Shown piece after piece: positions 60,592 through 63,317 of a stretch of DNA of 63,317 nt (within the stretch, counting starts at the first letter, position 1; each line of letters starts with the position of its first letter). The DNA is taken from the NCBI GenBank assembly GCA_019746135.1, contig JAIESI010000100.1, positions 1 to 63,317 of the forward strand. The letters run 5' to 3'. The notes under the pieces were generated by a model. That model was not told where the DNA came from. It ran no database searches and worked only from the letters and a program-made list of their open reading frames with translations. This stretch comes from Xanthobacteraceae bacterium (lineage in GTDB: Bacteria; Pseudomonadota; Alphaproteobacteria; Rhizobiales; Xanthobacteraceae). Position numbers and translations under genes: made by a program.

Positions 60592-60846
60592 GTGGCTTCT
60601 AGTCCAAACACGCAAGCCGCTGCGCGCTCCCCCGGCGCGCGGCGGCCGGGGTTAAACGTCGGCAGCGCATGTGCCGCAAGCTCGATCTCAGGTTCGCAGC
60701 AACCAAGCCGGGGCCGTACCAATTGCGGCGGTGAAATTCGCGCCACGAGCCGGCGCGAGCGAAGCGGCTCACCGAGCTGCGCCGGCCGGAATTTCTTCGC
60801 AAACACAAGCGGATAAGGCAGGGCAGACCGCTGGCTGGTTGATGGG

Positions 60847-60891
60847 TTGACAGCGATCCGATCGGCGCTAATGTTCGTTCTTTCTTTGTTC
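60847..60891 (+). promoter_or_regulatory. Predicted sigma70 promoter with LexA-type SOS box
   Basis: TTGACA (60847-60852), 16 bp, TAATGT (60869-60874), then GTTC-TTTCTTT-GTTC (60877-60891), the alphaproteobacterial LexA box GTTC-N7-GTTC. The box overlaps the expected start of transcription, as in LexA-repressed genes. An extra GTTC lies just before it. No intact gene follows; the structured element begins 69 bp downstream. Confidence 0.6.
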
Positions 60892-60960
60892 TCTTGAGGT
60901 GCCGTCGATCGCGGCGTCCGACGAGGGAGCAGAATGCGGTGCCCGACAACTGGCATCGCG

Positions 60961-61205
60961 TTGGAGCGCCGGGAGGCGCCGGGGCCCCTCGCAAGGGCCC
61001 CGCGCCCCGGGACCCCCACCCCCCTCAAAGCCTATGGGTCCCGGAATCTTGGCGCGGACCGGCCGATCGCAAGGCCGGTCCGGGAGCCTTCGCAAAGCTC
61101 CCGGCGCCTCCCGGCGCTCCAACCCCTCTTTTCGAGGGGAAGGAAAAGCGGTCCCCGCGAAGGCGGGGAAGGAAACGGCGGGCCGGCCCGGGCGCCCGAA
61201 TTCAA
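60961..61205. repeat. Large self-complementary multi-hairpin element
   Basis: A perfect 23-bp inverted repeat (60961-60983 with 61100-61122) encloses further perfect stems: 60981-60987/60995-61001 (loop CTCGCAA), 61007-61015/61036-61044 extended by CGCGCC/GGCGCG (61001-61006, 61051-61056), 61056-61064/61073-61081 (loop GATCGCAA) and 61080-61087/61097-61104 (loop CTTCGCAAA). More stems follow at 61123-61139 and 61152-61169. The three shorter loops share TCGCAA. No coding function. Candidate structured RNA or palindromic repeat element. Confidence 0.85.
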
Positions 61206-61274
61206 AGCCCCGGGACGATGACGCTTGAGACAAGGCGGCCTGAGGAAATACGGAGCGTGGCCCGGGTGAGGCGA

Positions 61275-62081
61275 TCAGGTCCCGACCGCGAGCGGCGCGT
61301 GCATCTTGCGCAGCATCGCGATCACCGACAGCGCGACGTTCTTGCCGGTCTTCGGGTTTTCCGACGGGATGTTCTCGATCGACAACGTAAACCGCGCGCT
61401 GTCGGAATCGACCTCGATCGAATGGCAATTCCGCGTCACCGCCGGGTCGGCATAAATGTCGATCATGGTGCGGTCCGGCCCGATGCCGGCCAGCGACAGC
61501 GCCGCCGCGACGTTGACGTTTGCGGGAAAGCCCGCGGCCGCCTCGCGCGCGGTGCCGCTGAACACGAGCTTTGCGGTGTTGAGCCCTTCGACCGAGATGT
61601 TGTTCTTCACGAGATGAGGCGCGCCGACCAATCCGATCGGCGGCTTCCGCGTCGTCATCTTCACCGAATGGATCGTGCCCTCGGCCGCGGCCGCCACCGC
61701 ATCGAGGCCGAGCAGCGCGCCGGTCGGCACGATGATCCGCCCGCCGTGGGCCTTGGCGAGGTCGATCAGGTCCTGCCGCGGCAGCAGCGCGCCGCAGGAC
61801 AGCACCATCACCTGCTTGCCGGCCTCGAGCATCGGCTTGCAGATGCGCTCGATCAGCGAGGCCGGCGCGCACTCGACCGCAAGGTCGGCGTGCTTGGGGA
61901 ACTCGTCGAGCTCCACCACCGGGCAGTCGATCTTCTGTTCCTTCAGCCAGCCGCGCGCCTTGTCGGCGTTGCCGGTGGCGATGGCGGCGAGGCTCAGTCC
62001 GGGGAGGCCGTCGGTGAGGCGCCGTGCCACGGCACGGCCGATCGCGCCGAGGCCGGCGATGGCAATTCGGGTTGTTTTCAT
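61275..62081 (-). CDS. nadX: aspartate dehydrogenase (NadX-type)
   Basis: 268 residues. NAD(P)-binding start TRIAIAGLGAIGRAVARRL, then family motifs VECAPASLIE, VLSCGALLPRQDL and the C-terminal AspDH block NVNVAAALSLAGIGPDRT. It oxidises L-aspartate to iminoaspartate, an entry to NAD synthesis, or reduces the reverse reaction. It is divergent from a Bug-type receptor gene; AspDH genes commonly lie beside tripartite tricarboxylate transporter genes, so a role in catabolism of an imported acid is possible. Start ATG at 62081 is the natural one. Confidence 0.88.
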   Translation of the reverse strand: MKTTRIAIAGLGAIGRAVARRLTDGLPGLSLAAIATGNADKARGWLKEQKIDCPVVELDEFPKHADLAVECAPASLIERICKPMLEAGKQVMVLSCGALLPRQDLIDLAKAHGGRIIVPTGALLGLDAVAAAAEGTIHSVKMTTRKPPIGLVGAPHLVKNNISVEGLNTAKLVFSGTAREAAAGFPANVNVAAALSLAGIGPDRTMIDIYADPAVTRNCHSIEVDSDSARFTLSIENIPSENPKTGKNVALSVIAMLRKMHAPLAVGT

Positions 62082-63246: not shown

Positions 63247-63317
63247 GGTGCGCCCGGCATGGGCATCGACTTGGAGGTGGAAGTCCTCTCGTGAGCTGGT
63301 CACAGTGAGCGAAGCGA

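Follow-up and report, generated by a model that had tools for sequence, protein, structure and literature searches.

A dispersed family of probable self-contained structured-RNA genes with predicted LexA control in a Xanthobacteraceae bacterium

Introduction

What does a promoter of the SOS type serve when it is followed not by a recognizable gene, but by a segment in which nearly every base can pair? This question is raised by one locus of a 63,317-nucleotide contig of a Xanthobacteraceae bacterium (JAIESI010000100.1 of assembly GCA_019746135.1, analysed from position 1 to position 63,317 and hereafter called the window). The initial annotation of this DNA, made from its letters, had read here an SOS promoter directing transcription into a large multi-stem element, and considered either a DNA-damage-induced structured RNA or a palindromic element that had landed behind an old SOS gene start. 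We find that positions 60847-61221 of the window are a single copy of a dispersed family of probable structured-RNA genes. Each unit has a leader with a hairpin, P0, followed by an outer stem, P1, that usually encloses four hairpins; this fold recurs in 56 cores (the P1-enclosed parts of the copies) from nine species, with varying inner sequences. In the sequence comparisons described below, promoter, leader and stems are found together as one unit, the operator persists while its surroundings and geometry change, and the fold is maintained with a bias to the strand read from the promoter. The explanation that we consider probable is that these are dispersing, self-contained genes for a structured RNA, under SOS control in this genome and in the complete genome G080.

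Copies in the Host Genome

The window's own genome (G000; 7.74 Mb on 395 contigs, 8.5% contamination) holds many relatives of the element. A BLAST search with the window element returned near-complete copies at 91-100% identity as well as many copies of other subfamilies, which rules out that the element is unique. The P1 arm, with ≤1 mismatch, has 73 matches on 41 contigs, compared with eight matches of a reversed-arm control pattern at up to two mismatches, and both arms occur in inverted order on 32 contigs. Two of these 32 two-arm copies are not intact, one having only 23 nt between its arms (contig C332) and the other carrying an insertion (C147); intact copies number about 30. The initial annotation had proposed counting the arm across the genome, holding that many dispersed copies without the promoter would mark an ordinary repeat. 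The copies are indeed many and dispersed, and the promoter is kept with them (see below).

Two of these loci deserve mention in their own right. In the C147 copy (L062, of class C as defined below) the P2 loop is interrupted by what may be a small mobile element, an insert of about 180 bp whose ends are inverted (CTGTCGTATTCACAC ... GTGTGAATCCAACAG). At L013 (C318) the flanks are, by eye, homologous on both sides to those of window 60700-61340, and the inner subfamily and the promoter class differ; this mismatch may mean that the assembly mixes two strains, given its contamination, or that copies swap parts by gene conversion.

Copies that are intergenic and dispersed, with inverted arms as in a REPIN, each arm itself being a small palindrome (GCGCC-GGGA-GGCGC), could be taken for a palindromic repeat acting at the level of DNA, of the REPIN/BIME kind or a miniature inverted-repeat transposable element (MITE), with the promoter as a passenger. 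We regard this as improbable. Solitary arms, the singlets expected of repetitive extragenic palindromic (REP) sequences, are absent from G000 except for nine, each ≤150 nt from a contig end. The arms are also internal to the conserved unit, lying in the window copy about 110 nt inside its promoter end and about 95 nt inside its 3′ end, and are thus not the terminal inverted repeats of a MITE. A Y1-type transposase (PF01797) was not found in G080, G055, G134, G152, G149 and G011, all of them carriers and some incomplete, and matches over the cut-off number three in G000, two in G151 and one each in G150 and G118. With no match in six of ten carriers, among them the complete G080, we reject mobilisation by a RAYT transposase. 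The conservation of promoter and operator, and an asymmetry between G-U and A-C pairs, are further points against a DNA repeat, and both are described in the following sections.

The LexA Box and the Promoter

The promoter TTGACA-N16-TAATGT and the GTTC-N7-GTTC that follows it lie exactly where the initial annotation had placed them (60847-60874 and 60877-60891). In the window alone such a box is not significant (one found, 1.79 expected), and both the box and the promoter gain significance only because other copies carry them too. GTTCN7GTTC is given as the Caulobacter LexA motif in the part of the published account available to us (PMC12700426). In the genus of the window the same box precedes lexA in 11 of 11 genomes and recA in all eight with a readable recA start (G118 has only a fragment, G152 and G150 no recA match), which bears out its reading as the alphaproteobacterial LexA box.

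In G000 the exact box stands upstream of 32 of the 34 copies examined, namely 20 of 21 with the leader of the window type and 12 of 13 with another leader (class C), and TTGAC is found upstream of all 34. By contrast, it occurs in one of 846 flanking 90-nt control windows from G000 and G080 and in two of 1,166 windows from other species, the span searched being 130 nt for class C and 90 nt for other copies and controls. By this sequence test, 32 of the 34 copies, the window copy among them, carry a LexA operator. A pattern joining the two elements, LexA box-N0-30-GTCGATCG, has 23 matches in G000 (20 of them members of the RNA family) and none when reversed; among 149 genomes of the bacterial family it has matches in 40, and only those of G000 and G080 resemble the RNA family, as judged by eye and not one by one. 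The geometry is not constant. In class A, to which the window copy belongs, the box starts 29-30 nt from TTGAC, downstream of the -10 region; in class B it starts 10-14 nt from TTGAC, between -35 and -10; and in class C it has the opposite orientation (GAAC-N7-GAAC) and overlies the -10 region. The complete genome G080 has an exact box in seven of its 12 copies, and five of these seven boxes enclose TTGAT at the presumed -35 position. The LexA box is thus kept while its geometry and surroundings vary, and it has not simply been copied along.

These counts bear directly on the second explanation of the initial annotation, that of a palindromic element inserted downstream of what is left of an old SOS gene's start. 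Viewed in the window alone, the parts could be unrelated, and the box by itself carries no significance. Such a coincidence is hardly credible for an exact box that recurs before 32 of 34 copies, with a leader model (R1, see below) that is matched in 10 of 11 species, and we reject it because promoter, box, leader and fold travel together. A passenger role of the promoter is likewise ruled out, by the conservation of promoter and box among copies and by the counts of the box-leader pattern.

Fold, Covariation and Strand Bias

Folded singly, the cores have exactly four branches inside P1 in 48 of 56 cases, five in six and three in two. In the window copy folding gives four inner hairpins, where the initial annotation had seen at least four inner stems, with TCGCAA in three of the four loops (P2, P4 and P5); the outer stem pairs perfectly, as it had claimed, over 24 bp (60960-60983 with 61100-61123) and not 23 bp. 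The 281-nt region folded from the window reaches -179.2 kcal/mol, against -143.0 kcal/mol for shuffled sequences (z -6.2; 0 of 200 shuffles reach the value).

Covariation was assessed in three alignments. The first (A1) comprises 26 leaders of nine species, which are 26 of 32 listed leaders and include none of class C, and is the source of covariance model R1, whose counts exclude class C (13 copies), contig-end pieces and the longer sister RNAs described below. In P0, both sides have changed in five of eight pairs (2 of 500 shuffles reach five of eight), 93.7% of cells are paired, and the covariation score lies above all 500 shuffles and all slid versions. The 72 matches of R1 yield the 56 cores, as one lies outside the fetched loci and 15 have no 3′ arm that could be found (contig ends, disrupted copies, or arms too divergent for the pattern). 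The second alignment (A2), of the window subfamily, contains 23 sequences of six species (27 filtered window-type cores, less L002, L230, L232, L223, L247 and L244, with L005 and L007 added); 97.7% of its cells are paired, double-changed cells number 34 against 9.0 in shuffles, and every measure exceeds all 500 shuffles, the changes being located in P4 and P5 while P1-P3 are nearly invariant. The third (A3), of a second subfamily, contains 18 of the other 29 cores, from six species, with 98.8% of cells paired and 64 double-changed cells against 22.6 in shuffles (0/500). Compensatory changes of the kind that mark structured noncoding RNAs are thus found, though not on every measure nor for P1.

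The choice of strand is also informative. Over the three alignments, G-U pairs outnumber A-C pairs by 161 to 16 cells (35 to 11 by columns) in structures predicted for the promoter-read strand, so that G-U is kept over A-C as expected if selection acts on one strand. Of the 56 whole elements, 49 are more stable when folded as the promoter-read strand than as its complement, and the same holds for 40 of the 56 cores. Together, these two biases argue for an RNA and against a DNA cruciform, and they point to selection on the RNA read from the promoter. A possible contact between a GATC in the leader and one in a loop (the latter present in 31 of 45 copies with, and 4 of 11 without, a leader GATC) is too weak to be claimed.

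Could the unit instead encode a small protein, or form the 5′ leader of the gene that follows it, its stems being incidental? The initial annotation had seen no intact frame; in fact, a 95-codon frame from ATG 60934 crosses the element, ATG and GTG alternate at that start position in several copies, and stop-free stretches have a median of 107 codons, a length that is usual for such GC-rich DNA. Nevertheless, single-base insertions and deletions in the leader break a common frame, and core lengths fall in all three classes modulo 3 (28, 14 and 14 of 56), from which it follows that no common frame is kept among copies; to this extent the annotation was right. In 35 of 51 copies the gene called on the downstream side runs convergent to the unit (orientation being taken from rough codon-composition calls, with five of the 56 copies lacking a call on one side), and the units are therefore not leaders of the next gene. 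We consider a coding or leader role very unlikely.

Parts of the Window Copy

The features of the window copy are collected in Table 1. A motif like GCTGTTTGA-N4-TGAATC occurs at, or just past, the 3′ end of many other copies (e.g., L003, L005, L019, L057 and L115) and is absent from the window copy with ≤2 mismatches allowed. We take this motif to resemble the boxA of rRNA operons; a literature search on the likeness found none.

Table 1. Features of the structured-RNA gene at 60847-61221 of the window.
Feature	Position	Strand	Basis and remarks
-35 hexamer TTGACA	60847-60852	+	Direct reading; TTGAC 5′ of every G000 copy examined (21 leader-type, 13 class C)
-10 region TAATGT	60869-60874	+	Direct reading; weak, TATAAC in several sister copies
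LexA box GTTCTTTCTTTGTTC (GTTC-TTTCTTT-GTTC)	60877-60891	+	Pattern match; kept in sister copies; same box before lexA and recA
Conserved leader, P0 hairpin and 5′ arm	60892-60981	+	Match to covariance model R1 at 97 bits, a model trained on sequences that include the window copy
P0 leader hairpin GCGGTGCC / loop CGACAACT / GGCATCGC	60936-60959	+	Covariation across leaders
Multi-stem element, 160 bp	60962-61121		Direct reading
P1 5′ arm, 24 bp, perfect with 61100-61123	60960-60983	+	Sequence comparison
P2 inner hairpin, TCGCAA in loop (60989-60994)	60981-61001	+	Individual folding
P3 inner hairpin, long, with internal loop	61002-61055	+	Individual folding
P4 inner hairpin, loop GATCGCAA	61056-61081	+	Individual folding
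P5 inner hairpin, TCGCAA in loop	61082-61102	+	Individual folding
P1 3′ arm	61100-61123	+	Pairs with 60960-60983
P6 3′ hairpin CCCCTC...GAGGGG, then AAGGAAAA	61123-61139	+	Direct reading; by eye, hairpin of varying sequence at equivalent place in other copies
P7 3′ hairpin CCCGGGC...GCCCCGGG, close to 3′ end of unit	61187-61214	+	Direct reading; by eye, counterparts in many copies

Related Species and a Different Promoter

In the remaining eight carrier species of the genus, the family's copies are preceded by a different promoter. At the position of the LexA box, 35 of 38 copies show TTATCCCC or a one-letter variant of it, often behind an A-rich stretch. Promoters of the type CTTATCCCCG-N-TTATNTT are carried by G118, G134, G151, G152, G150, G149, G011 and G055, and the pattern CTTATCCCCG-N10-22-TTATNTT has 24 matches in the genus, compared with none when reversed. 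Thirteen of the 24 are R1 copies and the other 11 lead into a longer sister RNA, so that all 24 belong to one RNA superfamily. This sister RNA exceeds 400 nt; its leader begins similarly, it too has 3′ hairpins and arms like those of P1, and a large additional domain precedes P1 (loci L276, L282, L286, L290, L294, L277, L295, L280, L296, L297 and L298); the five of its 11 loci that were run against Rfam gave no match. The initial annotation had foreseen neither that the family is multicopy and dispersed nor that, of the ten carrier species in the genus, eight have a different promoter in place of the LexA box.

A comparison of neighbouring genes gave eight strong positions shared between species. 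At one of these the RNA stands beside the same gene (87% identity over 463 residues) in G080, where it has a LexA box, and in G118, where it has TTATCCCC; the promoter type also differs in the locus pairs G149/G151 and G011/G080, so that two or three locus pairs differ in promoter beside a common gene. In most such pairs only one flank yielded the shared gene, which makes identity of site likely and not proven. At several loci (G055:C39, G055:C10, G151:C2 and L316; also L054 and L057-L059) TTGACA is followed by ATTCCT and a complete or partial AGGAA repeat, possibly another operator that replaces or adjoins the LexA box.

Distribution, Gain and Loss

The initial annotation had advised a covariance-model search of related genomes. 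Such a search with R1 gives 72 matches within the genus (21 in G000, 12 in G080, eight each in G118 and G134, six in G151, five in G055 and three in each of four others), spread over 10 of its 11 genomes; G101 has none, and nine of the ten positive genomes had supplied training sequences. Across the bacterial family 24 of 248 genomes are matched: besides the ten within the genus, 14 more are found with lower scores, and seven of these 14 belong to genus g34. Nine loci outside the genus were read: both arms are present with ≤3 substitutions in seven and one such arm in two, and by eye all nine have a hairpin at the position of P0.

Known RNA families gave no match. The window has no Rfam hit at the gathering threshold (Rfam 15), and for ten loci run at E up to 5 the sole matches were a tRNA in flanking DNA and some weak ones well short of that threshold; nor did the literature matches listed include a description of this RNA family. 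A plasmid origin was rejected, as 60847-61240 has no match in 72,556 plasmid records. So was a viral one: of seven exact arm matches in viral contigs, which by eye look like coding sequence, none has a second arm within 260 nt or the P0 loop (CGACAA within 60 nt upstream).

To follow gain and loss, we searched ten genomes for the sequences flanking four of the copies. The site of G151:C95 is empty in eight of them: one alignment runs across it in G011, G055, G134 and G152, and the flanks lie 59-184 nt apart in G080, G150, G118 and G101, too close for a unit of about 390 nt. The site of G151:C142 is empty in G150 and G101, again with one alignment across it. Beside the window copy lies a dehydrogenase gene (61275-62081, minus strand). 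Among its nine closest relatives, by eye, only 3′ remnants of the element remain behind the gene in L142 and L152, and the other seven have no element within the 720 nt read. Separately, the copy L098/L260 (G149:C82) is broken within P1 by an insert that resembles, by eye only, an insertion-sequence transposase.

The main rival explanation sees a selfish, non-autonomous mobile element that uses promoter and fold for its own propagation (through an RNA or single-stranded intermediate handled in trans, for instance), with movement timed by the SOS response and without benefit to the host. The high copy number, the few positions shared between species (the eight strong pairs with a common neighbour gene), the sites without an element in relatives, the truncated remnants at L142 and L152 (by eye) and several near-identical copies within G118 all agree with it. 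On the other hand, no transposase or reverse transcriptase is seen in the unit, the fold is maintained across different subfamilies, and one locus pair retains the RNA next to the same gene under two different promoters. At the empty sites (six aligned) the intergenic flanks are too diverged to define a target-site duplication. We regard a selfish element as a real possibility, if not the probable one.

Proposed Mechanism and Significance

At the level of sequence, the comparisons above lend strong support to the leading idea of the initial annotation, a predicted SOS promoter that would drive a structured RNA. Several observations weigh against our extension of it to a family of SOS-controlled RNA genes. 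The LexA box is found in none of the 38 copies from the eight other carrier species, and five of the 12 copies in G080 have an imperfect box or none, for which reasons SOS control is not general to the RNA family. The boxes of the copies are not independent evidence, since copies share descent; only their differing geometries are. A simple scan found no promoter in the window copy, its -10 region being too poor, and a terminator scan recognized no intrinsic terminator there. As to the fold, further pair types in P0 are not outstanding (52 of 500 shuffles), nor are the pairs with double changes (11 against 9.1; 36 of 500) and further pair types (30 against 28.5; 110 of 500) of the second subfamily, and P1 has no support from covariation because it hardly varies. 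In the P0 alignment alone G-U stands at 2 and A-C at 3, and the total was taken from folds computed for the promoter-read strand, a choice that favours G-U. Finally, a sequestering function (see below) is suggested only by the repeated loops.

If the RNA-gene explanation is correct, each copy would use its own promoter and LexA operator to produce an RNA of about 330 nt, composed of P0, P1 around P2-P5, and the 3′ hairpins. LexA would repress all copies, and its cleavage triggered by RecA would derepress them together, giving a burst of folded RNA. We would guess, most tentatively, that the RNA has a trans-acting role: it would most likely bind or sequester a partner by means of its almost invariant P1 and its repeated identical loops, which are three TCGCAA in the window type and TACGTCAYT in others. 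A higher copy number would raise the RNA dose, and new copies would arise in intergenic gaps.

A broader reading is conceivable, though we would not call it probable: RNA-only genes may multiply as complete transcription units whose switch is exchanged between species, LexA operators being found in two and TTATCCCC in eight. Since the copies within a genome almost all carry the same kind of switch, the genome as a whole would answer one signal, here DNA damage, with a simultaneous burst from dozens of loci, possibly forming a dose-dependent sponge or scaffold that comes into play when DNA breaks or when a resident element is induced. Most known SOS outputs are proteins or single small RNAs. 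A genome with dozens of copies of the same folded RNA under LexA control would, if real, represent a new kind of SOS output, and the near-complete exchange of a promoter set among related species would offer an unusually clean and directly testable example of regulatory rewiring.

Comparison With Known Systems

Large noncoding RNAs such as GOLLD, ROOL and OLE are, in the part of their description available to us (PMC12286853), likewise intricately folded and of unsettled role; the family described here is shorter (about 330 nt, although a longer sister form exists), multicopy and without a match to their Rfam models. REPINs and BIMEs with their RAYT transposases, again from a partial account (PMC3116915), are also intergenic, dispersed and built as an inverted pair of small palindromes. 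Differently from them, the RNA family has its own promoter and leader, internal arms and a strand bias, and six of its ten carriers gave no Y1-family match. The loci SymE/SymR, TisB/IstR-1 and DinQ/AgrAB resemble the family in being small and tied to LexA control; as far as the excerpts of their descriptions go, they pair a toxin or peptide with an antisense RNA, whereas here there is no kept frame and no antisense partner was seen. With the genes of the alphaproteobacterial SOS regulon (recA, lexA) the copies share the operator half-sites and their spacing by the promoter, but the unit that is presumably regulated is a multicopy, predicted structured RNA and not a repair gene. Sponge RNAs of the CsrB/CsrC type display repeated identical hairpin loops with GGA motifs. 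The RNA family also repeats identical loops, carrying TCGCAA or TACGTCAYT instead of GGA.
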